Assembly (NCBI RefSeq): GCF_021732705.1
Contig: NZ_JAKFUM010000010.1
Location: 124,001-188,000, forward strand
Source: Nevskia sp.
GTDB taxonomy: Bacteria > Pseudomonadota > Gammaproteobacteria > Nevskiales > Nevskiaceae
Length of the DNA stretch: 64,000 bases
Direction of reading: 5' to 3'
Below are positions 11,076 through 26,122 of the stretch, piece after piece; the first letter of the stretch is position 1; every line of letters begins with the position of its first letter. The notes below the pieces were generated by a model. That model did no database searches. It saw only the letters and a program-made list of their open reading frames with translations, and was not told the origin of the DNA. The position numbers and the translations under genes were made by a program.

Positions 11076-12734
11076 ATGTCCGAGTTGCCGAATCCGGTCC
11101 AGCAGCTGCTGAAGCGCGCCGCCGAAACCCCGAACGCGCCGTATCTGCATCAGCCGGTGAAAGGCGTCTGGAGAACCTGGACCTGGGCCGAAGTCGCCGA
11201 ACAGGCACAGCGGATGGCCGCCGCGCTGGTGGCGATGAACCTGCCGAAGGGCAGCGCCGTGGCCATGACCGGCATGAACAACGCGCACTGGTTCATGGCC
11301 GATTTCGCGTGCGGCATCGCCGGCCTGATCGGGGTCGGCCTGTATCCGAAGCAGTCGGAAGACGCCGTGCGCTTCATTTCGGAGCACGCCGGCATCAAGG
11401 TCGCGTTCATCGGCCCGATGCCGGACGTGGCCGGCTTCATCAAGGCGCTGCCGGCCGACGTGGTCAAGATTTCCCTGCCTTATCCGGGCGTTGCCGCGTA
11501 CGACCACCACTGGGACGAGCTGGTCGCGAAGCATGCGCCGCTGCCGAAGCCGGTCGAGCGCGGACCGGATGACATCTGGAGCCTGATCTACACCTCCGGC
11601 ACCACCGGCAATCCGAAGGGCGTGATCATCACGGCGAAGAACCTGACCTTCACCGTTGCCGGCATGCTGCGCGACCAGCCGGCGATCGCCAGCGGCGAGC
11701 ACTTCATGTCGTACCTGCCGCTGGCGCATGCCTTCGAGCGCGGCGCCGTGGAAACGGCGAGCCTGTACCTGCCGGCCCAGGTGCACTTTCTCGAAGAGCT
11801 GGAGAAGCTGCCGGAAACCCTGGCCGCCGTGCGCCCGACTCGCTTTTATGGCGTGCCGCTGGTCTACACGCGGATTCAGGCCGGAATTCTCAAGAAACTG
11901 CCGCAGGCCAAGATCGACCGCCTGCTGGGCATTCCGATCGTCTCCGGGCTGGTCAAGAAGAAGATCCGCAAGGGTCTCGGGCTGGATCGCAGCTGGCTGC
12001 GCGTCTCTGGCGCGGCCCCGCTGCCGAAGCCGGTGATGGACTGGTTCGGCAAGCTCGGCATCGAGCTGTTCCAGGGCTACGGCATGACCGAGAACTCGAT
12101 CTACGCGAGCTTGAACCTGCCGGGCAAGAACAAGGTCGGGTCGATCGGCAAGCCGTTCGTCGATTCCGGCATCCGCATCGCCGAGGACGGCGAGATCCAG
12201 TGCAAGCATCCGGGCAACACGCCGGGCTACTACAAGGACCCGGAAAAGACCGCCGAGTTGTTCACCGCCGATGGCTGGCTGCGCACCGGCGACAAGGGCC
12301 ACATCGACGCCGACGGCTACCTGTTCATCACCGGCCGCGTGAAGGAAATCTTCAAGACGCTGAAGGGCAAGTACGTGTCGCCGGCGCCGGTCGAAGGCAA
12401 GTTCGGCATCAACACGCACGTCGAACAGATGTGCCTGGTCGGCGCCGGCCTGTTCCAGCCGATGCTGGTGCTGTCGCTGAACGCCGATGCCCGCAAGCTG
12501 CCGAAGGCCGAGCTCGAAGCCGGTCTGGTCTCGACCATGAAGGCGGTCAACGAAACCCTCGAGCCGCACGAGGAAATCGCCAAGATCGTCGTCACCAAGG
12601 ACACCTGGACCATCGACAACGGCCTGATGACGCCGACGATGAAGGTGCGCCGGAACGAGATCGAAAAGCGCTACGGCGAGTTGCTGGCCAAGCTCGAAGC
12701 CGACCGCAAGCTGCAGGTCTACTGGGAAGGCTGA
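11076..12734 (+). CDS. AMP-dependent long-chain acyl-CoA ligase
   Basis: A 552-residue adenylate-forming enzyme that activates a carboxylic acid, probably a long-chain fatty acid, to its CoA thioester via an acyl-AMP. The P-loop-like motif YTSGTTGNPKGVIIT is at about residue 172. GYGMTENS follows at ~335, the LRTGDKGHID hinge at ~405, and VKEIFKTLKGKYVSP carries the C-terminal domain Lys region. It resembles the eukaryote-like FACL/bubblegum subgroup more than E. coli FadD. Substrate class is inferred from the family; the patatin and thioesterase genes nearby support a fatty-acid role. Confidence 0.88.
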   Translation: MSELPNPVQQLLKRAAETPNAPYLHQPVKGVWRTWTWAEVAEQAQRMAAALVAMNLPKGSAVAMTGMNNAHWFMADFACGIAGLIGVGLYPKQSEDAVRFISEHAGIKVAFIGPMPDVAGFIKALPADVVKISLPYPGVAAYDHHWDELVAKHAPLPKPVERGPDDIWSLIYTSGTTGNPKGVIITAKNLTFTVAGMLRDQPAIASGEHFMSYLPLAHAFERGAVETASLYLPAQVHFLEELEKLPETLAAVRPTRFYGVPLVYTRIQAGILKKLPQAKIDRLLGIPIVSGLVKKKIRKGLGLDRSWLRVSGAAPLPKPVMDWFGKLGIELFQGYGMTENSIYASLNLPGKNKVGSIGKPFVDSGIRIAEDGEIQCKHPGNTPGYYKDPEKTAELFTADGWLRTGDKGHIDADGYLFITGRVKEIFKTLKGKYVSPAPVEGKFGINTHVEQMCLVGAGLFQPMLVLSLNADARKLPKAELEAGLVSTMKAVNETLEPHEEIAKIVVTKDTWTIDNGLMTPTMKVRRNEIEKRYGELLAKLEADRKLQVYWEG

Positions 12735-12930
12735 GCCGCGCGCGTCGCCGGGGCCGCCGTGCCGGGCGACGATCGGCGCCGCCGGCCGACGATCGATCGA
12801 GGTCGACCACTGGCGTTGCCGGCCTCGACGCGCTTAGCCTTCAGGCGTGGCTGGCGCGACCGCCGGCCGACGTTCCGGCCATCGCCGTCGACGGCACCGG
12901 ACGATTCGCCTGAACCGATGCGGAGCGGCC

Positions 12931-15270
12931 ATGATCGACGCCCAGCGCAGCGCGCCCGAAGACCGGCCGAGCTATCCGGCAGGACTGGCGAAGGCTGAAT
13001 TCGAGGCGCTGAGCCAGCGTCGCCAGGCGGCAGACCTGCCGGCGCCGAACGCCGACACCCCGACCACCGGCGTCGCCGTGTCCGGGGGCGGCATCCGCAG
13101 CGCGATCTTCGCGCTCGGCGTGTTCCAGGCGCTGGCGGCGCGCGACAAGCTCCGGCACGTCGACTATCTGTCGACCGTGTCCGGCGGCAGCTACTTCGGA
13201 TCGTTCCTCGGCGCGATGTTCGCGCGTGGCCACCGCCACGATGCCGTGAGCCGCTTTCTGAACCGCGGCGGCGACAGCCATGTGCCGACGTCCCCGGGAA
13301 GCCCCGCGTCCGACGGCCGACCGCCGGCGATCCATCCGCTGAACTGGCTGCGGGTCAACGGCCGCTTCCTGGCACCGCGTGGCGGTACCGACGGCTTCCG
13401 CATCTTCGCACTGCTGCTGCGCAACTGGCTGGGCCTGCTGTTCGTCGTCGGCGTGACGCTGTTGACCGCCATGCTCGGACTGCGCCTGCTGATCGAGATT
13501 GCGGCGGACGCGTTGCCGTCGCTGCATCCGTGGTTTCTCAGCGATGCGCTCTCGGGGCCGATCTGCATCGGCACCGCGAAGCTTCAGATCAGCGATGCGG
13601 CCGTCCTGCTGCCGATACCGGCGGCGGTGGCGGTGCTCGGCGGCATTGCCTACTGGTTCGTCGGGCTGGTCGGTCCGCCCTCGACCTTGCATCGGGAATG
13701 GCGGGCCCAGCAGACCAGCGTGCTCAGTGGCGGACTCGCGGCCACCGTCCTGCTGCTGGCCTGGTGCGTCATCGACACCATTGCACGAAGTCTCGGGCAG
13801 ATCGGGCTGACGGCGGGAGTGGTGAATGCCGTCATCGCCAGCTCGGCCGTGGTCGGCCTGCGCAAACTGCTGACCGTGCCGCCCGTCAGCAAGGCGCTGG
13901 AGGGCGTCTGGCGCTCGTCGCGACTGCCGCTGCGGCTGACGCTGTGGCCGGTCGCGCTTCTGCTGTGGGGGCTGCTGCTGGTCGCGCTCGATCATCTGGC
14001 GATCGCGCTGGTGCCGAACCGGAACGCGTCGTGGGGCGTTCTCGCGTGGCTGCTGGCCCAGCAGGCCGTGCTGGCGTTCGCCTCGCTGTTCCTGAATCGC
14101 TCGTCGCAGCACGCGTTCTACGCCGAGCGCCTGATCCGGACCTTCGTCGGCGCGTCGAATCCGCAGCGCCATCCATCGGCGCGGTCCAGCAGCCGCGGCG
14201 ACGAGGCCAATGTCGCCGAACCGATCGAGGGCGACGACATCGCCTTCGAGGACTATCACGGCCAGGTCATTGCGCACGGCGGGCCGCTGCACCTGATCAA
14301 CGTCACGCTGAACGAGACGGTCAGCGAGTTCGCCGCCACGATGCTGCGCGACCGCAAGGGCCTGCCGCTGGTGATCGGACCCTGCGGCCTGTCGAGCGGC
14401 GTGCTGCACCACGCGCTCGACGCGCTGCCGGACCGTCGCCTCGCCGACTGCGGTCATTGGGCGCTGCGGCCCGCGCATCTGGAGGAAGGCCAGACGCCGC
14501 GCAGCTTCGTCATGTTCGGGCACGCGCCGTTCAAGGCCGAGGCCTTGAGCCTCGGCAGCTGGACCGCGATTTCCGGCGCCGCCGTGGCCACCGGCCTCGG
14601 CTCCTACGGCGGCACGGCATTGAGCCTGCTGACCGGGCTTGCCAACCTGCGGCTCGGCTACTGGTGGGGCGCGGGCACGGTCGGCCGGCCCGGTGCGGCC
14701 GGCGGCGAGCCGGCGCGGCCGCTGCGCGGCAAGCGGCCGATGCAGGCCTATCTGTACGCCGAGATGACCGGCCGCTTCTGGGGTCCGCACCGGCAGCGCT
14801 GGTACCTGAGCGATGGCGGCCATTCGGAAAACACCGGCGCGCTGGAACTGATCCGCCGGCGGCTCGACGAGATCATCGTCATCGATGCCGAAGGCGATCC
14901 GTCGGCACCGACCGGCAATCTCGGCGAACTGGTCCGCAAGGCCCGGCAGGACTACGGTGCGGAGATCGAATTCGAACGCGGCGCCAGCGCGCCATTCGGT
15001 GACTACGACGCCTTGAAGCCCGGTGCCGATGGTCTCGGCGAAGCCTGCGCCGTTCGCGGCGTGGTGCGGTATCCGGGCACGGATCGGGTGTCCCGGCTGC
15101 TGTACATCCGCCCGGTGCTGTCAGCCGACGACCCGCCGGACCTGATCCGCTATCGCGCGGACAACCCGTCGTTTCCGTACCAGTCGACCACCGACCAGTT
15201 CTTCGACGAAGCGCAGTGGGAAAGCTATCGCAAGCTCGGCGAAAGCATCGGCCTGCGCGTGTTCCGCTGA
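12931..15270 (+). CDS. Patatin-like phospholipase with inserted membrane domain
   Basis: A 779-residue protein with both halves of a patatin active site. An oxyanion Gly-rich loop (VAVSGGGIRS) lies near residue 50, the nucleophile Ser in LSTVSGGSYFGS near 83, and a catalytic Asp in YLSDGGHSENTG near 630. The usual GxSxG is altered to TVSGG. Between them sit about six hydrophobic segments (roughly 158-190, 222-245, 263-287, 288-313, 333-360, 367-388), so the hydrolase is split by a membrane region. The ATG at 12931 has GGAG upstream and is preferred to 12847. It likely deacylates membrane lipids at the inner membrane. Its stop is 4 bp from the convergent thioesterase gene. Confidence 0.8.
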   Translation: MIDAQRSAPEDRPSYPAGLAKAEFEALSQRRQAADLPAPNADTPTTGVAVSGGGIRSAIFALGVFQALAARDKLRHVDYLSTVSGGSYFGSFLGAMFARGHRHDAVSRFLNRGGDSHVPTSPGSPASDGRPPAIHPLNWLRVNGRFLAPRGGTDGFRIFALLLRNWLGLLFVVGVTLLTAMLGLRLLIEIAADALPSLHPWFLSDALSGPICIGTAKLQISDAAVLLPIPAAVAVLGGIAYWFVGLVGPPSTLHREWRAQQTSVLSGGLAATVLLLAWCVIDTIARSLGQIGLTAGVVNAVIASSAVVGLRKLLTVPPVSKALEGVWRSSRLPLRLTLWPVALLLWGLLLVALDHLAIALVPNRNASWGVLAWLLAQQAVLAFASLFLNRSSQHAFYAERLIRTFVGASNPQRHPSARSSSRGDEANVAEPIEGDDIAFEDYHGQVIAHGGPLHLINVTLNETVSEFAATMLRDRKGLPLVIGPCGLSSGVLHHALDALPDRRLADCGHWALRPAHLEEGQTPRSFVMFGHAPFKAEALSLGSWTAISGAAVATGLGSYGGTALSLLTGLANLRLGYWWGAGTVGRPGAAGGEPARPLRGKRPMQAYLYAEMTGRFWGPHRQRWYLSDGGHSENTGALELIRRRLDEIIVIDAEGDPSAPTGNLGELVRKARQDYGAEIEFERGASAPFGDYDALKPGADGLGEACAVRGVVRYPGTDRVSRLLYIRPVLSADDPPDLIRYRADNPSFPYQSTTDQFFDEAQWESYRKLGESIGLRVFR

Positions 15271-15819: not shown

Positions 15820-16686
<867 letters not shown>

Positions 16687-16831: not shown

Positions 16832-18196
16832 CTATGCGACCAGCGCCTTCAGCTTCGCGACCTGCTCCGGGAAGAACGGGCCGTTGGCCTTCAGCGCCTC
16901 GGCTACCACCTGCCTGGCATCGCCGGCGCGGTTCAGCTTCAGCAGCACCATCGCACGGTATTCGGCGACGGTCAGGCGATTGACGCCGTAGGCCTTGGGT
17001 GCCGACTGCTCCAGCCACGGCAACGCGGCTTCGTACTGGCCGCGCTCGTACAGGCTGCGGCCGAAGCGGTAGGCGTAGACGTAGTCGTCCGGCCACGCGG
17101 CGATCAGCTTCGGGAACAGCGCGTCGAGCTGGTCATAGCGCTTGGCCAGCGCCAGATAGACGCGCAGGTTGTCGGCGAGGTTGCGGTCGCGCTTCAGGTC
17201 CAGCTTGCCCGGACCGCCGAGACGCTTTTCGGCGTCGGCGATAACGCGGTCGAGGGCCGACGTCGCGGCCTTCGTGTCGCCGAGCGCGGTGGCCAGATCG
17301 AACGTGGTCGAGACGACGCTGCGGGCATCGGCGCAGCTCGGCGTCTTGATCAGCACGCGCTTGGCGATCAGCGCTTCCATCGGCGCCTGCTGGCTGGCGA
17401 ACACGGTCTTGCGGCGTTCGGCCGGCAGGCTGGCGGTGCAGCTCAGCGCGCGGTCGAGTTCATAGGCGCGGTCGCAGCCCAGGGTGTCACTGCCGGGGCC
17501 GGACAGCACTTTCGGCGCGACCGCCGCACAGGCTTCGGCATCCTTGGCGTTGTTCGCGCGGATCAGTTCGAGTCGCGACAGCCACAGCGACGCCGTCGGG
17601 TCCTTGGCGATGGCGTCGGACACTGCGGGCGACTGCGCCTTGGCCCAGGCCAGCCCGCCATCGGCATCACGCCGGGCACCGAAGGCCTGCAGCACGCCAC
17701 GGGCGGCGCCGATCGACTTGGCGCTGCCATCGGTGACCACGGCCTTCAGGGCATCGAAGCCGCTGGCGCGGGCGAGGATCGCGTCGATCTCCGGATAGAA
17801 CTGCGCCCGGGTGCGTTCCAGCGAGATGCGGCCGATCTCCTTGCCATCGGCACCCAGCACGACGTAGCTCGGCAGGCCCTTCACAGTCCACTGCTGCATC
17901 CAGTAGGCGCCGGCCGGCGAGTCGGCATCGAGCTCGACGACGACCGCCTTCTTTTCGAGCGTGTCCCACTCCGGCCCGTTCTTGACGTTCTTCGCCATGA
18001 AGTAGCAGGAGTAGCACCACGGGGCGTAGAAATCGATCAGCACCGGCGCCTTGCGCTCGGCCGCCGCCTTCAGCGCCTCGTCGATCGGCGCGGTCAGGTC
18101 ATCGGCGTGGAGGGCGGCGGGCAGGCCGAGCAGGCCAGCGGCGAGGACGGCGCTCAGCAGCCGGTCACGACAGCGGAGGAAGGTTGGCAGGCGCAT
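16832..18196 (-). CDS. Exported thioredoxin-fold protein with C-terminal repeat region
   Basis: A 454-residue protein with a signal peptide (LLSAVLAAGLLGLPAALHAD), then a thioredoxin domain whose active site reads FYAPWCYSCYFM (CxxC = CYSC). The remainder, about 300 residues, is helical with spaced Cys residues and looks like TPR-type repeats. The domain resembles DsbD-gamma/thioredoxin-like periplasmic reductases. The start at 18196 (12 codons inside the track's ORF) opens on the signal peptide and overlaps the upstream gene by 32 bp. It is the last gene of a minus-strand run with cfa; a periplasmic redox role is inferred. Confidence 0.78.
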   Translation of the reverse strand: MRLPTFLRCRDRLLSAVLAAGLLGLPAALHADDLTAPIDEALKAAAERKAPVLIDFYAPWCYSCYFMAKNVKNGPEWDTLEKKAVVVELDADSPAGAYWMQQWTVKGLPSYVVLGADGKEIGRISLERTRAQFYPEIDAILARASGFDALKAVVTDGSAKSIGAARGVLQAFGARRDADGGLAWAKAQSPAVSDAIAKDPTASLWLSRLELIRANNAKDAEACAAVAPKVLSGPGSDTLGCDRAYELDRALSCTASLPAERRKTVFASQQAPMEALIAKRVLIKTPSCADARSVVSTTFDLATALGDTKAATSALDRVIADAEKRLGGPGKLDLKRDRNLADNLRVYLALAKRYDQLDALFPKLIAAWPDDYVYAYRFGRSLYERGQYEAALPWLEQSAPKAYGVNRLTVAEYRAMVLLKLNRAGDARQVVAEALKANGPFFPEQVAKLKALVA

Positions 18197-18905
18197 CTTT
18201 CGGGGGCGTGTCCGTGTAGACGATGCGGACATTGTAGGCCTTGCCCGTCGCCGGATCGTGCATGTTCGAGACCCCTCGATATTCCAAAAGGTAACGAGTC
18301 TTCACGTCGTAGACGAGATTCAGCGGCCCGGCGAGAAAGCGCAGCAGCGAATCCGGCTCGACCAGCAGCTTGATCGCCGGCTTGCCGTCGAACGTCGTGT
18401 CGCCGACCTTCTTGCAGCGGAAGTTGTAGGTATCGAGCTGCCCGGCCACGCCGAATCGGAACTTGAGTTCCTTGCCGGCCTGCAGTTGGTCGAAGTTCTG
18501 GACGATGGCGCTGTGAAAGCCGGAATCCGCCGCCATGCCCGGCGTGCGCTTGATGACCTCGGTCCGGGTCTTGCCTTCGAAGGTCTTCGACATCGTGTAG
18601 CGATCCGGCTTCACCTCGGTGATCGCTTCGACATAGCCCTCGCTCGGGATGTCGAGCTTGAACACCGGAATCAGCGGATCGGCGCGGTAGTCCAGCGTTT
18701 TCGACGCGATCTTCGCGCCTTTCGGATCGAAGTAGTCGATGGTGCCGTCGATCCAGTTCAGGCCATCCAGCGTCTGGCGATGGACCTCGGTGTAGAGGTA
18801 GGCGTTGGTCTTCAGATCGTAGGCATAGCCCCGGAAATGATGATCGGCCGGCGCGGCGAGCGCGGCGATCGGCGTCAGCAGCAGGGCGGCGGCAAGCGTC
18901 TTCAT
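18165..18905 (-). CDS. Exported protein of unknown function (DUF3108-like?)
   Basis: A 246-residue secreted protein with a signal peptide (KTLAAALLLTPIAALAAPAD) and a beta-rich body. Segments such as FRFGVAGQLDTYNFRCKKV and LVYDVKTRYLLEYRGVSN recall periplasmic proteins of the DUF3108 type, but I am not sure of the family. The start overlaps the stop of the metallo-hydrolase (ATGA) and its end overlaps the thioredoxin-fold gene, so all three appear translationally coupled. Function unknown; lipid binding would fit the context. Confidence 0.7.
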   Translation of the reverse strand: MKTLAAALLLTPIAALAAPADHHFRGYAYDLKTNAYLYTEVHRQTLDGLNWIDGTIDYFDPKGAKIASKTLDYRADPLIPVFKLDIPSEGYVEAITEVKPDRYTMSKTFEGKTRTEVIKRTPGMAADSGFHSAIVQNFDQLQAGKELKFRFGVAGQLDTYNFRCKKVGDTTFDGKPAIKLLVEPDSLLRFLAGPLNLVYDVKTRYLLEYRGVSNMHDPATGKAYNVRIVYTDTPPKDAPANLPPLS

Positions 18906-19984
18906 GGCAGGCAGGGTTTCGAGGGGGTCATCGGATGGACCGCATCGGCGACGCCGAATTCCGCTGCGGTGAAACTCGTCGGCGGCAACGCCTTCGCGGC
19001 GACGGCCGCGGCGAGGTCGGTCACCGGCTGGGTCTGGCCGTCATCGGCGAGATCGAAGGTGCCGTAATGGATGCCGAGACTGCGCGCGGCTTCGAGATCG
19101 GCATGCGCCTGCACCGCCTGCGCCGGGTCGACGTGCTGGTACTCGGTGAGCCAGCGCGGCAAATAGGCGCCGATCGGCAGCAGCGCCAGCCGCATCGGCC
19201 CGTAGTGTTCGAACGCGTGGCGGAAATGCGGGCCGTAGCCGGTATCGCCGGCGAAGTAGACCGGGCCGCCGACGGTTTCGACGACATACGCCAGCCAGAA
19301 GCTGCGATTGCGATCGCCCGGCCACGCGCGGCTGGACCAGTGCTGGGCCGGCGCGGCGTGGATCGCGCAGCCGTTCGGCAGCCGGTACGACTGCCACCAG
19401 TCGAGTTCGACGACGGTGGCGAAGCCTTCCTCGCGCAGCCGCTGGCCATCGCCCGGCGGCACGAGGAAGGCCGGATGGTGCGCGGCTTCGAGCCGGCGCA
19501 GGGTCGGCAGGTCGAAATGGTCGTAATGGTTGTGACTGACCAGGACGGCGTCGATCCGCGGCAGGTCGTCGAAATCGATCGCCGGCGGACGGTAGCGCTC
19601 AGGGCCGGCAAACGACAACGGACTGGCGCGATCCGACCAGATCGGGTCGGTCAGCAGGTTCACGCCATCGGCCTGGATCAGCACCGTGGCGTGGTTGACG
19701 AAGGTCACGCGCAGTTCGCCGGCGGCCGTGCTCGCCTGCGGCTTCGGGCCCGGCGGAATGCTGAGGTCGCGCGTCCACGCGCCGGGGGTCGATTCGCGCC
19801 AGTAGCGCAGCAGGTCCAGCGGGCCGATGTCGAACGGGGCCGGTGTCAGGAAATGCGCGCCGTCGAAGTGATCGCTCGGCGCGCCCCGCCAGGCGGTGCT
19901 CGTCACGCAGGCGGTGATGCCGGCGCAGGCTGCAAGCACCAGCGCCGGCACTGCCACGCGTCGCACGCGGCGCGGTGCCGTCAT
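18902..19984 (-). CDS. MBL-fold hydrolase, NAPE-PLD-like lipoprotein
   Basis: A 360-residue metallo-beta-lactamase-fold enzyme of the N-acyl-phosphatidylethanolamine phospholipase D / UlaG-like group. Metal-binding motifs are VSHNHYDHFD, the His of PAQHWSSR, the Asp of FAGDTGYG and the terminal His of IHYGTFDL. The N-terminus (VPALVLAACAGITACVT) has a lipobox-like ITAC, so it is probably a lipoprotein acting in the periplasm. The start at 19984 overlaps the cfa-like stop (ATGA); the track's longer ORF is a shadow of that gene. It likely cleaves a phosphodiester in a lipid head group. Confidence 0.85.
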   Translation of the reverse strand: MTAPRRVRRVAVPALVLAACAGITACVTSTAWRGAPSDHFDGAHFLTPAPFDIGPLDLLRYWRESTPGAWTRDLSIPPGPKPQASTAAGELRVTFVNHATVLIQADGVNLLTDPIWSDRASPLSFAGPERYRPPAIDFDDLPRIDAVLVSHNHYDHFDLPTLRRLEAAHHPAFLVPPGDGQRLREEGFATVVELDWWQSYRLPNGCAIHAAPAQHWSSRAWPGDRNRSFWLAYVVETVGGPVYFAGDTGYGPHFRHAFEHYGPMRLALLPIGAYLPRWLTEYQHVDPAQAVQAHADLEAARSLGIHYGTFDLADDGQTQPVTDLAAAVAAKALPPTSFTAAEFGVADAVHPMTPSKPCLP

Positions 19985-21045
19985 CCGCGTTTCGTGAACA
20001 GGTAGTGCGCCACACCCCATTCGTTGCCGTTGGCGTAGCCGAACAGCTCGGCCACGGCCATGTAGAACATGCGCCAGCGCTGCACCCAGATCGGCGCGTC
20101 CTGCTTGCCGTATCCGGCTTCGAAGATCTTCAGGATCTCGTCCTTGTTCGCGTCCATGTTCGCGAGCCAGTGGTTCGAGGTCTTCTCGTAGTGCTTGCCG
20201 TCGACCCACCACTGCCGTTCCAGCTTCACGTGATCCTGGAAATTCAGCAGCAGGTTCTCGCTCGGCATGGTGCCGCCGGTGAAGAAGTACTTCGACATCC
20301 AGTCGTCTTCGCCCTTCACCTCGAAGTGATAGGCGAGGACCTTGTGCACGAAGATGTGGATGAAGAGCTTCGCGTCCGGCTTCATCCAGCGGCTGATCTT
20401 TTCCAGCAGCAGTCCGTAGTTCTTCATGTGCTCGAACATCTCGATCGACATCACGCGATCGAAGCCCGGCTCGATGGTGGCACCGGAGGTCTGCGCCACG
20501 GCCGGAAACTCGTGGGTGACGATGTTGCCGGTGACGATCGTGAGGTTGCCGAAGCCGCGCTCCTTCGCCCGGCCTTCGATGTACTCGCGCTGCCCGTGCG
20601 AGTTCGACAGGCCCACGATCCGCGAATTCGGGTACTTTTCCGCCAGCCACAGGCTCAACGAGCCCCAGCCGCAGCCGAGATCAAGGATGCGCATGCCGTC
20701 GACCAGACCGGCACGCTCGGCGTACAGGTTCAGCATCGCGTCGCTGGCTTCGCCGAGCGTCTCGTTGCCGGTCGGATACAGGCAGCACGAATACTTGAGC
20801 CGCGGGCCGAGGTGGGCGTGGAAGAACGCCGCCGGCACCTCGTAGTGCTGCTCGTTCGCGGCACCGGTCTCGACCGCGATCGGGCTGGCGCGCAGCTCGT
20901 CGAGGAAGGCATTGAAGCGCCGGCTGCGCACTTCGCCGTCGAGGTTCGCCTCGTCGATCAGGCGGCGCTCCATCAGCTTGCGCATGCCGTAGCGCGACAG
21001 CACGTCCGGAATCAGGCCGCGCTCGCAAAGGTCAATCACATTCAT
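19981..21045 (-). CDS. Cyclopropane-fatty-acyl-phospholipid synthase family methyltransferase
   Basis: A 354-residue SAM-dependent methyltransferase acting on the double bond of unsaturated acyl chains in phospholipids. The SAM motif ILDLGCGWGSLSLWLAE and the following VGLSNSHGQREYI are standard. YEVPAAFFHAHLGPRLKYSCC is the CFA substrate-binding opening. It lacks part of the N-terminal domain of E. coli Cfa (382 residues). Paralogues of this kind, paired with DUF1295 proteins, are not always true cyclopropane synthases; some make methylated or furan fatty acids. It is coupled by ATGA to the downstream MBL gene. Confidence 0.87.
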   Translation of the reverse strand: MNVIDLCERGLIPDVLSRYGMRKLMERRLIDEANLDGEVRSRRFNAFLDELRASPIAVETGAANEQHYEVPAAFFHAHLGPRLKYSCCLYPTGNETLGEASDAMLNLYAERAGLVDGMRILDLGCGWGSLSLWLAEKYPNSRIVGLSNSHGQREYIEGRAKERGFGNLTIVTGNIVTHEFPAVAQTSGATIEPGFDRVMSIEMFEHMKNYGLLLEKISRWMKPDAKLFIHIFVHKVLAYHFEVKGEDDWMSKYFFTGGTMPSENLLLNFQDHVKLERQWWVDGKHYEKTSNHWLANMDANKDEILKIFEAGYGKQDAPIWVQRWRMFYMAVAELFGYANGNEWGVAHYLFTKRG

Positions 21046-21124
21046 CGTGCAGGGGGTCGTTGGGGTTGTCGAAAGCGCGCGGCCGAGCCGCGTCGAGTTG
21101 TTTCAGGGAGGCGTCGGGGAAGCT

Positions 21125-21904
21125 TCAGGACTGCTTCGGCCACCACGGAATGAAGACGCTGGTGGTGCGCATGTACTCGGCATAGCCCGGGCGCGATTTC
21201 ACCAGATGGGCTTCGAGGATCGGCACGCCGGACATCTTCAGCAGCAGCCAGGCCATGATCGCCGCCGGCAGCACGGTGACCGGCCACCAGACGCTGCCGA
21301 TCGCCAGCGGCACGTAGGCGATCCAGTGCAGCGACTCGAAGAAATAGTTCGGGTGCCGGGAATAGCGCCACAGCCCCGTGTTGCAGACCTTGCCCTTCAT
21401 CGCCGGATTGCCGCGGAAGCGTTCCATCTGGGCATCGGCGATGCCTTCGCCGATGACGGCGACGAGCCAGATCGCAACGGCCAGCACCACGGCTGGCACA
21501 CCGGCGTTCCCCGGGCGATACGCCACCGTCAGGAAGCCGACCGACAGCAGCCACGCGATCACGGCCTGGAACTGGAAGAACCAGAACATGTTGAAGTTGG
21601 CTTTCGCGCCCCATTCGGCCCGGAATTTCGCGTAGCGCGCGTCTTCCGGCTTGCCGGCGTTGCGGATGTACAGATGCGTGCCGAGCCGGAAGCCCCACAG
21701 CCCGCCAAGCACGCCGAGCGCGATCCGCGTCTCGACCGGGGCTGACCCGAAAATTGCGTACCAGACGGCCAGGAAGCCGAGACTCCACGACCACACCGGG
21801 TCGACCATCCCGGCGTTGCGGGTTTTCAGCTGGATCGCCCAGACTAGGGTCAATACGAGCGCCACGATGGCAAGGCCGGAAACGGCGGCAAGGGCTGGTG
21901 ACAT
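21125..21904 (-). CDS. DUF1295 family membrane protein (steroid 5-alpha-reductase-like)
   Basis: A 259-residue polytopic inner-membrane protein with about six helices. The C-terminal signature GLWRYSRHPNYFFESLHW is the DUF1295 / isoprenylcysteine methyltransferase-like motif. The family is distantly related to steroid 5-alpha-reductases and often lies next to cyclopropane-synthase-like genes. It is upstream of cfa by 79 bp on the same strand, so it is likely the first gene of the lipid-modification operon. Reduction of an acyl double bond is a guess from the fold relationship. Confidence 0.85.
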   Translation of the reverse strand: MSPALAAVSGLAIVALVLTLVWAIQLKTRNAGMVDPVWSWSLGFLAVWYAIFGSAPVETRIALGVLGGLWGFRLGTHLYIRNAGKPEDARYAKFRAEWGAKANFNMFWFFQFQAVIAWLLSVGFLTVAYRPGNAGVPAVVLAVAIWLVAVIGEGIADAQMERFRGNPAMKGKVCNTGLWRYSRHPNYFFESLHWIAYVPLAIGSVWWPVTVLPAAIMAWLLLKMSGVPILEAHLVKSRPGYAEYMRTTSVFIPWWPKQS

Positions 21905-23301: not shown

Positions 23302-26064
23302 CTACAAGCCCGCCATCGCGTCCCGCGCCTTGCGGGTGTTGTCGTCGTCCGGGCCGAGCGCGGCGGTGAAGTTGTCGAGGCTTTCGCTCAGCAGTTGACG
23401 GGCTTCGGCCTTGTGGCCGCGGGCGGCGAGCACGCCGCCGGTCTTGAGCAGGAACCAGCCGAGATCCCATTCGCCATGGCGGTATTGCGCGCGGGCACCG
23501 GCCAGCGCATCGCGGGCCAGCGCCTCGGCCTCGGCGCCGACGCCGGCCCCGTCGGCGACCAGCGCCAGGTTCATCGTGTGCATCAGCGTGTCCGGATGGG
23601 CGGCGCCGATCGTGCGCAGGTCGATGTCGCGCGCCTCGCGCGCCAGTGGCAGGCCTTCGGTGGCACGGTTCAGGCGCAGCAGGGTGATCGCGACATTGTT
23701 CAGCGCCCGCGTCAGCTTCGGGGTGTCGGATTCGGCGCCGTTGTGGCGCTGGTAGTCGAGATAGATGCGGAACAGCGGCAGCGCCTCGGCGTTCCGCCCG
23801 CTCTGGAAGTAGGCATTCGCGAGGCCGTTGGCGGCGGTGGCGCTGTACTGCGTTTCGCGGCCGCCGCCGATGGCGAGTGCGGCGTCGCGCGCGGCGCGAT
23901 GCTCGGCGATGGCCTCGTCGCTGCGGCCGGCGAGATTGAGCACGGTGCCGAGGCTGCGATGGCGCGAGACCGTCATCAGATTGTGCTCGCCATGCAGCTT
24001 CACCGACTTCGCGAGCACCGCGCGGGCCAGCGGCAGCGCTTCGTCGAAGCGCTGGGCATCGGCCAGATAGAACGCGAGGCTGTCCTCGGTCTCGACCGTC
24101 AGCGCGTGATCGTCGCCGAGCCGCGTCCGCATTTCCGGCACGATCGCCAGCTCCGGCAACAGGCAGGCGTCGTGACCGCCGCGGATGCCGCAGTCGACGG
24201 CGATCAGCGCCTGCCGCGCCGCCAGTTCGGTGGCGGCATCGAGCGTGCCGGCGGCACGGCCGGCATCGAGCACCGCCTGCGCCAGCGTGCGTTCGCGCGC
24301 CAGCTCGTTGGCGTTCTCGTAGGCGTTCAGCAGCCGCAGGCGTGTCGCCTGGGTCTCGGCGGCGGCGGGGCCGAGCAGGCGTTCGCGCTGGGCGACGGCC
24401 GATTCCAGCAGCGGAATCGCGCGCGTGGCGTCGTCGAAGCCGTTGTAGGCCTGACCGATGGCGTCAGCGATCGCAGCCCCGGCCAGCGAATCGCCGGGGA
24501 AGGCGCGCGCCAGTTCCGCCGCCGCCGGGCCGATCAGGTCCCGTAGCCGGATGTTCGGATCGGCGCTGATCACCGGATTGGCCGCCGACAGCAGGTTCTG
24601 CGTCAGGAACGCCGTGACCGCCTGCGCGGCCTGCGCCTGCGCCTCGGCCCGACGGCTTTCCGCCTGCGCCCGGAAGAACAGGCCGGTGCTGACCGCAAAG
24701 CCGATCAGCAGCGTCGCCGCGAGCGCGCGCAGCAAGCCGCGCCGCGCCCGGGCGCGGGCCAGCGACTGTTCGAGCTGCTGGGCATGGGCCTGCGCCTGCC
24801 GCTCGCGGGCGCGTTCGAGCCGGCGCAGGTCGAGGCTGCGCAGGCGCAGTGTAAGCTGGGCGGCATCGCCGAGCCGCTTCGCCGGGTCCCCGGACGCCGC
24901 CGCGGCGATGTCCTCGCGCAGCAGTTCGTCGGCCACGTCCGCTTCCCAGCCCGGCGCCAGCGGCCGGCGGAAATCGCCGACGACGATCTGGTACAGCATC
25001 ACGCCGAGGGCGTAGACATCGGCCTTGACCGTCGGCGGCTGGCCGGCCAGCAGTTCCGGCGCCAGGTACAGCGGCGTGCCGCTGGTGGCGCCATCGATGA
25101 CGACGGTGCGGGTGAAGCCCATCCGGGTGATGCCGAGGGCGTCGAGCTTGCCGGCATCGAGCACGCGGCCGCTGCCGAAATCGGTCAGGCGAATCCGCGG
25201 CCGGCCGTCGGAATCCTGATGGATCAGCACGTTGCCGGGCTTCAGGTCCTTGTGCAGCACGCCAACGGCATGGATCGCGGCCAGCGCGTCGGCAAGGTCC
25301 TCGACGATCCGCAGCCGGGTGCCGGGGGCGATCGTCGACAGGCCGCCGGCTGCGTCGGCCCACTGCTGCAGGCTGCCGTCCGGGCTGTATTCGAGCTCGA
25401 TGAAATTCGGCGTGTCGTCCAGCCGCCAGTCGAGGATGCGGGCGATGTCGTCGCGCGGGCCGAGCGTGTCGTTCAGCAGGCGGAACAGGGTGATCTCGCG
25501 CTTCAGCGCCGTGGCCTGGGCACCGTCGGCGGCGAACTTGAACACCCGGCGCTCGTGGGTCTTGGTGTGCTCGCCGAGCCAGACCTCGCCGTGCCCGCCG
25601 CCGGCCAGCGGCGCGCGGAACTGCCAGTGCGGCCGCGCCGGAATGGCATCGCCGGCGGTGAAGTCGAAGCGGGTGGCGGCAGGCTCCGTCCGGCCGGTGG
25701 CCAGCGTGCTGACGTCCGCCGCCAGCCGGTAGCCGTAGCCGTGCACGGTGCGGATCAGCGTCTGCTCGCTGTCGCCGATCGCCTGCCGCAGCCGCGCCAC
25801 GCACTTGGTCAGGCTGGCTTCGGTGACGATCCGGCCGGGCCAGACCGCGCTCAGGATCTCATCCTTGGTCACCACTTCGCCGGCATGGGCCAGCAGCAGC
25901 CGCAGCAGTTCCAGCGGCCGGCTTTCGAGCGCGACGAGCTGACCGGCGACGGTCAGGGTCAGGCTCGCGTCATCGAACTGGACGTCGCCGAAACGCCACA
26001 GGATCGGACTGCCGGCGGCGGCCGGGCTGCCGCCGGGGGTCGGGGTATCGGGCGTCCGATTCAT
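23302..26064 (-). CDS. Winged-helix / Ser-Thr kinase / TPR membrane protein
   Basis: A 920-residue fusion. Residues ~20-115 form an OmpR/CadC-type winged helix (ending IRTVHGYGYRLAADV). Residues ~145-430 are a Hanks kinase with Gly loop LAGGGHGEVWLG, Lys in RVFKFA, catalytic HKDLKPGNVLI, LTDFGSG and YLAPELL, so it looks active. One membrane helix (LLRALAATLLIGFAVSTGLFF) follows at ~441-461, then TPR repeats to the end, probably periplasmic. The start at 26064 has GGAGG ten bases upstream. It is divergent from the giant repeat protein, whose promoter it may control through phased repeats in the shared gap. Such fusions are known in Xanthomonadales-like bacteria. Confidence 0.87.
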   Translation of the reverse strand: MNRTPDTPTPGGSPAAAGSPILWRFGDVQFDDASLTLTVAGQLVALESRPLELLRLLLAHAGEVVTKDEILSAVWPGRIVTEASLTKCVARLRQAIGDSEQTLIRTVHGYGYRLAADVSTLATGRTEPAATRFDFTAGDAIPARPHWQFRAPLAGGGHGEVWLGEHTKTHERRVFKFAADGAQATALKREITLFRLLNDTLGPRDDIARILDWRLDDTPNFIELEYSPDGSLQQWADAAGGLSTIAPGTRLRIVEDLADALAAIHAVGVLHKDLKPGNVLIHQDSDGRPRIRLTDFGSGRVLDAGKLDALGITRMGFTRTVVIDGATSGTPLYLAPELLAGQPPTVKADVYALGVMLYQIVVGDFRRPLAPGWEADVADELLREDIAAAASGDPAKRLGDAAQLTLRLRSLDLRRLERARERQAQAHAQQLEQSLARARARRGLLRALAATLLIGFAVSTGLFFRAQAESRRAEAQAQAAQAVTAFLTQNLLSAANPVISADPNIRLRDLIGPAAAELARAFPGDSLAGAAIADAIGQAYNGFDDATRAIPLLESAVAQRERLLGPAAAETQATRLRLLNAYENANELARERTLAQAVLDAGRAAGTLDAATELAARQALIAVDCGIRGGHDACLLPELAIVPEMRTRLGDDHALTVETEDSLAFYLADAQRFDEALPLARAVLAKSVKLHGEHNLMTVSRHRSLGTVLNLAGRSDEAIAEHRAARDAALAIGGGRETQYSATAANGLANAYFQSGRNAEALPLFRIYLDYQRHNGAESDTPKLTRALNNVAITLLRLNRATEGLPLAREARDIDLRTIGAAHPDTLMHTMNLALVADGAGVGAEAEALARDALAGARAQYRHGEWDLGWFLLKTGGVLAARGHKAEARQLLSESLDNFTAALGPDDDNTRKARDAMAGL

Positions 26065-26122
26065 CGCCAAGCCGCCTCCGTGCTGATCCGGGACCGGGCG
26101 CAAGCCCTTGTCGTCATTGCGT

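Follow-up and report, generated by a model that had tools for sequence, protein, structure and literature searches.

The core of a five-gene cluster in Nevskia sp. is probably a two-gene unit, consisting of a DUF1295 membrane protein and a FufM-type SAM-dependent methyltransferase, that serves the synthesis of dimethyl furan fatty acids, with the remaining three genes being accessory envelope additions; we give this reading a probability of about 0.7. The cluster was found in a 64,000-nucleotide stretch of genomic DNA, referred to here as the window (Table 1). Furan fatty acids are membrane lipids that scavenge toxic singlet oxygen, and the methyltransferase is most likely the enzyme that gives them their second methyl group. 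The direct basis for this explanation is homology, catalytic residues, synteny, co-occurrence and the presence of the Ufa genes in the genome. The furan fatty acid methylation step is already known whereas the role of DUF1295 as a near-obligate partner of FufM is unreported.

Table 1. Genes of the cluster and its syntenic neighbour, in window coordinates.
Feature	Coordinates	Strand	Family match (E-value)
DUF1295 membrane protein	21125..21904	-	PF06966 4e-61; Steroid_dh 3e-7
FufM-type SAM-dependent methyltransferase, predicted furan fatty acid methylase	19981..21045	-	PF02353 CMAS 3e-37
NAPE-PLD-like metallo-beta-lactamase (MBL) lipoprotein, accessory	18902..19984	-	Lactamase_B_2 3e-41
Secreted beta-sheet protein	18165..18905	-	no Pfam family
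Exported thioredoxin-fold protein, TPR-like C-terminus	16832..18196	-	Thioredoxin_7 3e-12
PurU formyltetrahydrofolate deformylase, syntenic neighbour	15820..16686	-	TIGR00655 1e-114

An ORF check of the window placed all five ORFs of the 16832-21904 cluster on the minus strand. The ORF coordinates agree with the overlaps described in the initial annotation downstream of the DUF1295 gene, namely two ATGA junctions (methyltransferase/MBL at 19984-19981 and MBL/secreted protein at 18905-18902) and a 32-bp overlap between the secreted-protein and thioredoxin genes; an alternative earlier ATG is possible for the latter at 18232. The end of the DUF1295 gene is separated from the downstream methyltransferase gene by 79 bp. 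The view that this is a lipid-modification locus was also borne out. Among the related loci compared, the complete five-gene set occurs only within Nevskiales, and a conserved five-gene pathway was ruled out, as the MBL and thioredoxin genes occur only in subsets of loci. The synteny beyond close relatives that had been anticipated was found for the DUF1295-FufM pair, which was seen again in alpha-, beta- and gammaproteobacteria as well as in Vampirovibrionales, but not for the thioredoxin gene, nor for the MBL gene, whose linkage is confined to the order and one Spongiibacteraceae locus. In most loci of Nevskiales the thioredoxin gene is followed by PurU, probably an unrelated neighbour. Inspection of the window by eye also located long-chain acyl-CoA synthetase-like and patatin-like phospholipase genes near the cluster (11076-15270), and a gene that joins a winged-helix regulator with a Ser/Thr kinase domain and TPR-like repeats (23302-26103).

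The methyltransferase had been described as Cfa-like and was found instead to belong to the FufM/coclaurine N-methyltransferase (N-MT) branch, not to the cyclopropane type. In a search against solved structures, its best match was the plant coclaurine N-MT 6gkv (E 3e-77, residues 7-352), with pavine and tetrahydroprotoberberine N-MTs among the other top relatives, whereas E. coli Cfa was matched only at 8e-23. The protein scored 129 bits on the Cfa equivalog PRK11705 of NCBIfam, which is below the cut-off of 400. The cut-off and the ranking of the solved relatives together rule out a Cfa ortholog. The window protein falls in a branch near the coclaurine N-MTs and separate from Cfa and UfaM, and in a FastTree phylogeny rooted on Cfa/UfaM the plant N-MTs form their own clade (support 0.99) beside, and not inside, the sampled bacterial set.

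The assignment as FufM was made by family, via Arabidopsis AT4G33110, which we take to be a member of the coclaurine N-MT family, and not by direct alignment with the Rhodopseudomonas palustris enzyme RPA0924. RPA0924 (FufM) converts the monomethyl furan fatty acid 9M5 to the dimethyl 9D5 on phospholipids, as established with a deletion mutant, in a heterologous host and in vitro, and it shares 26% identity with UfaM (PMC7380195) and 38% with AT4G33110/LIME1, which was renamed AtFUFM1 (PMC10940516). The unusual lipid that the initial annotation had attributed to an undescribed pathway is most likely a furan fatty acid, the synthesis of which is already described (PMC7380195).

Alignment of 111 bacterial FufM-type proteins with E. 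coli Cfa revealed that the Cfa residues E239, H240, H266 and Y317 are kept in all of them, with E205, H206, H230 and Y286 as the equivalents in the window protein. The bicarbonate site of E. coli Cfa is formed by C139, E239, H266, I268 and Y317; the I268 position is Phe in all 111 proteins and the C139 position is Cys in 67 of them. All three plant N-MTs checked have Glu at the position of H266 and Phe or Pro at that of Y317, and the window protein, having H230 and Y286, is free of these replacements. This carbonate-site His and Tyr pattern favours C-methylation as the predicted activity.

The genome contains a single DUF1365 (UfaO) gene, which adjoins genes for a flavin amine-oxidase-type UfaD and a CMAS-family UfaM; the contiguous ufaD-ufaO-ufaM genes are located on contig C7 and not beside DUF1295-FufM. 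We compared 84 related loci, for which counts are descriptive as the loci were picked by similarity and many are related. In 76 of them, DUF1295 and the methyltransferase lie no more than 300 bp apart, and UfaD, UfaO and UfaM were each found in 40. In relatives, the DUF1295-FufM pair occurs inside the ufa operon, next to RpoE-ChrR or B12 photoregulators. The arrangement is clearest in Acinetobacter and Shinella. An Acinetobacter haemolyticus plasmid carries a desaturase, UfaD, UfaO, UfaM, DUF1295, FufM and a histidine kinase, whilst the Shinella locus consists of RpoE, ChrR, DUF1295 and FufM with UfaO and UfaM further on; Rhizobium and Cupriavidus provide further examples. No sigma-E or photoregulator gene was observed beside the pair in the window genome. 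A MerR and B12-binding regulator (LitR/CarH-like) is located at or near FufM in three loci (L094, L102 and L066, cluster c60), which suggests light control of the pathway there. Three other loci (L007, L008 and L009) have a ferredoxin-NADP reductase-like gene inserted between FufM and the MBL or secreted-protein gene, a possible candidate for an electron donor.

The pairing exceeds what chance would give and was also observed at the level of whole genomes, although the p-values that follow are inflated by shared ancestry. A FufM-type gene was present in 27 of 185 gammaproteobacterial genomes representing 177 genera. Full-length DUF1295 occurs in 26 of the 27 genomes with FufM versus 7 of the 158 without (p 3e-24), and UfaO in 22 of 27 versus 32 of 158 (p 1e-9); the DUF1295 gene lies within 2 kb of the methyltransferase gene in 21 of the 27. 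Among the gammaproteobacteria that have ufaO, DUF1295 was found in all 22 genomes with FufM versus one of 32 without (p 3e-14), and therefore it follows FufM and not the upstream ufa pathway. A phylum-wide sample gave a similar co-occurrence of FufM and DUF1295 (17/19 vs 10/280, p 6e-19). UfaO is missing in five of the 27 FufM-type genomes, some of which are incomplete, and therefore some members of the family may act on another substrate.

The DUF1295 gene of the cluster is the only one in the genome. Its Steroid_dh match covers part of the C-terminal half, and a search of its sequence against the PDB gave no match. The best PDB fold matches of its AlphaFold model (pLDDT 96) are delta14-sterol reductase (4quv), ICMT and steroid 5-alpha-reductases including SRD5A2 (7bw1), all with modest scores, the top match being weak (Foldseek E 0.014, TM 0.54). 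The reductase-type fold suggested initially is consistent with these sterol reductase and 5-alpha-reductase matches at a TM of about 0.5. The protein also carries an RHPNY-type motif, and we infer that it is an NAD(P)H-dependent reductase. To our knowledge, no enzyme activity is known for DUF1295, and its function is not the subject of the papers that were found to mention it, going by their titles and abstracts. In Chlamydomonas, the CFA1, CFA2/CPLD27, DUF1365, DUF2177 and DUF1295 genes are all induced by singlet oxygen in a SAK1-dependent manner, CFA2/CPLD27 being labelled as a coclaurine N-MT (PMC4067076). FufM alone is sufficient for 9D5 to be made in R. sphaeroides (PMC7380195); therefore DUF1295 would act before, after or beside methylation, not in it.

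The third gene encodes a true homologue of NAPE-PLD, as had been proposed, and aligns with the human enzyme (4qn9) at E 4e-60 over residues 84-339. Its metal motifs SHNHYDH, QHW, AGDTGY and IHYGTF align with those of NAPE-PLD and satisfy the zinc-ligand motifs HxHxDH, QHW, GD and IHxG, and its leader contains, on inspection by eye, the lipobox-like sequence ITAC (residues 23-26). Counts for this gene were taken from tblastn and genome searches because the gene caller took the antisense frame in some loci (cluster c63). Close orthologs, defined as those scoring over 375 bits, were found in 19 genomes of the order. Comparison of coordinates by hand places them adjacent to FufM or one gene away in 17 of these, which belong to seven genera and represent two families; FufM is at a contig end in one of the other two. 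The weaker paralogues of the order are never adjacent to FufM. A second NAPE-PLD-like paralogue with 41% identity is encoded in the same genome, unlinked to FufM (G000:C16:33006-33854). A Spongiibacteraceae locus (L030) and a Polycyclovorans locus (L031) likewise have the MBL gene after FufM. With linkage in 17 of the 78 FufM genomes of the order, it is absent at most FufM loci and is a lineage-specific addition to the cluster.

The secreted protein is predicted to be beta-rich (model pLDDT 90), and its model has weak PDB matches to DUF1849 (EipB-type), LolA/LolB, LprG and RseB/MucB, making a periplasmic lipid carrier a possible assignment; a profile search returned only a spurious fimbrial match. 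It is conserved after FufM in 21 of the 84 loci, in Nevskiales and Burkholderiales, and together with its relatives it constitutes a conserved secreted family without a Pfam entry. The linkage of the thioredoxin gene is limited to Nevskiales and close relatives. The MBL, secreted and thioredoxin proteins appear to be lineage-specific envelope additions, and the initial proposal that the lipid is released or trimmed outside the inner membrane was left unsupported.

In the mechanism that we propose, UfaM, UfaD and UfaO, encoded on the other contig, would supply phospholipid acyl chains that carry the monomethyl furan ring, and FufM would move a second methyl group from SAM to a ring carbon to give a dimethyl furan fatty acid, the product expected to scavenge singlet oxygen. 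DUF1295 would work with FufM; its most likely activity is the NAD(P)H-dependent reduction of double bonds in the same acyl chains or in their oxidation products. Both the substrate of the window FufM and the reductase role of DUF1295 are predictions.

The best solved relatives of the methyltransferase are the coclaurine, pavine and tetrahydroprotoberberine N-MTs, and the plant residues E204, E207, H208 and W329 are conserved in the window protein too, so that methylation of an amine such as a phospholipid head group or a small amine could be envisaged. However, the carbonate-site His and Tyr, invariant in the 111 bacterial members, are replaced in the three plant enzymes, the genomic neighbourhood is one of acyl-chain chemistry and the tested bacterial relative FufM is a C-methylase, making this an improbable activity; N-methyltransferase identity is disfavoured by the active-site residues. 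It is equally doubtful that the enzyme methylates ordinary unsaturated chains, with DUF1295 reducing the methylene product so that a lipid of methyl-branched or cyclopropane type arises, which the NAPE-PLD-like enzyme would then release. The CMAS fold, the reductase-like fold predicted for DUF1295 and the position of the MBL gene next in the same operon are compatible with such a route, but 18:1 is not methylated by FufM (PMC7380195), a true Cfa is encoded separately in the same genome (contig C13), DUF1295 goes with FufM rather than with the Ufa genes and most loci lack the MBL gene.

The remaining alternatives concern the extent of the functional unit. There is about an even chance that it comprises DUF1295 and FufM alone, the MBL, secreted and thioredoxin genes being co-transcribed with separate envelope functions. 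The linkage of MBL in just 17 of 78 FufM genomes and the restriction of the thioredoxin and PurU synteny to the order and close relatives argue for this, against which stand the spread of the MBL linkage over seven genera, two families and a Spongiibacteraceae locus, its restriction to the close-ortholog group, and the occurrence of the secreted protein after FufM in both Nevskiales and Burkholderiales. At the other extreme, and with low probability, the locus would both make furan fatty acids and repair them. When singlet oxygen or radicals are quenched, the ring would open and leave an unsaturated 1,4-diketone (dioxoene), which the enone-reductase-like DUF1295 would turn into a saturated 1,4-diketone that recloses to the furan or is at least harmless, while the NAPE-PLD-like lipoprotein would strip PE head groups bearing attached electrophiles and the secreted protein would carry the damaged lipids. 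Furan fatty acid oxidation does yield dioxoenes (PMC12595405), and human NAPE-PLD hydrolyses lipid-aldehyde-modified PE including pyrrole and ketoamide forms (PMC12214272); therefore DUF1295 and MBL could act in repair. However, DUF1295 follows FufM instead of being present wherever furan fatty acids are made, an indication of chemistry specific to the dimethyl form, and MBL is present in some lineages only.

Under the preferred reading of a DUF1295-FufM core, genes whose routine annotation is Cfa or coclaurine N-methyltransferase are moved into furan fatty acid metabolism. In proteobacteria and, as far as expression shows, also in a green alga, DUF1295 emerges as a near-obligate partner in the making of dimethyl furan fatty acids, and the pairing opens its function to direct testing. 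The relationship also suggests that the plant alkaloid N-MTs are related to a bacterial lipid enzyme of the photo-oxidative response, from which two active-site changes separate them.

Compared with known systems, the window enzyme resembles RPA0924 in being a SAM-dependent methylase of the LIME1/FUFM1 (AT4G33110)-related branch, for which identity to UfaM is low, and the window genome likewise has UfaM, UfaD and UfaO; unlike in the description of RPA0924, the gene is paired here with DUF1295 and followed by the NAPE-PLD-like, secreted and thioredoxin genes, a set that has not been described. The families of the RpoE-ChrR/LitR photo-oxidative lipid operons (UfaD, UfaO/DUF1365, UfaM, DUF2878 and lipocalin) flank the pair in many relatives, whereas the window genome has its ufa genes on another contig and such a regulator was not found beside the pair. 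DUF1295 may resemble delta14-sterol reductase and steroid 5-alpha-reductase in its predicted fold, for which the match is weak, and in an RHPNY-type motif. All the metal motifs of human NAPE-PLD are shared by the window MBL, although the latter differs in its bacterial lipoprotein-type leader. Finally, the plant coclaurine N-MTs are the closest solved structures and align with the window methyltransferase over its full length, but they have replaced the equivalents of H266 and Y317 whereas the window enzyme keeps both and belongs to a separate branch.
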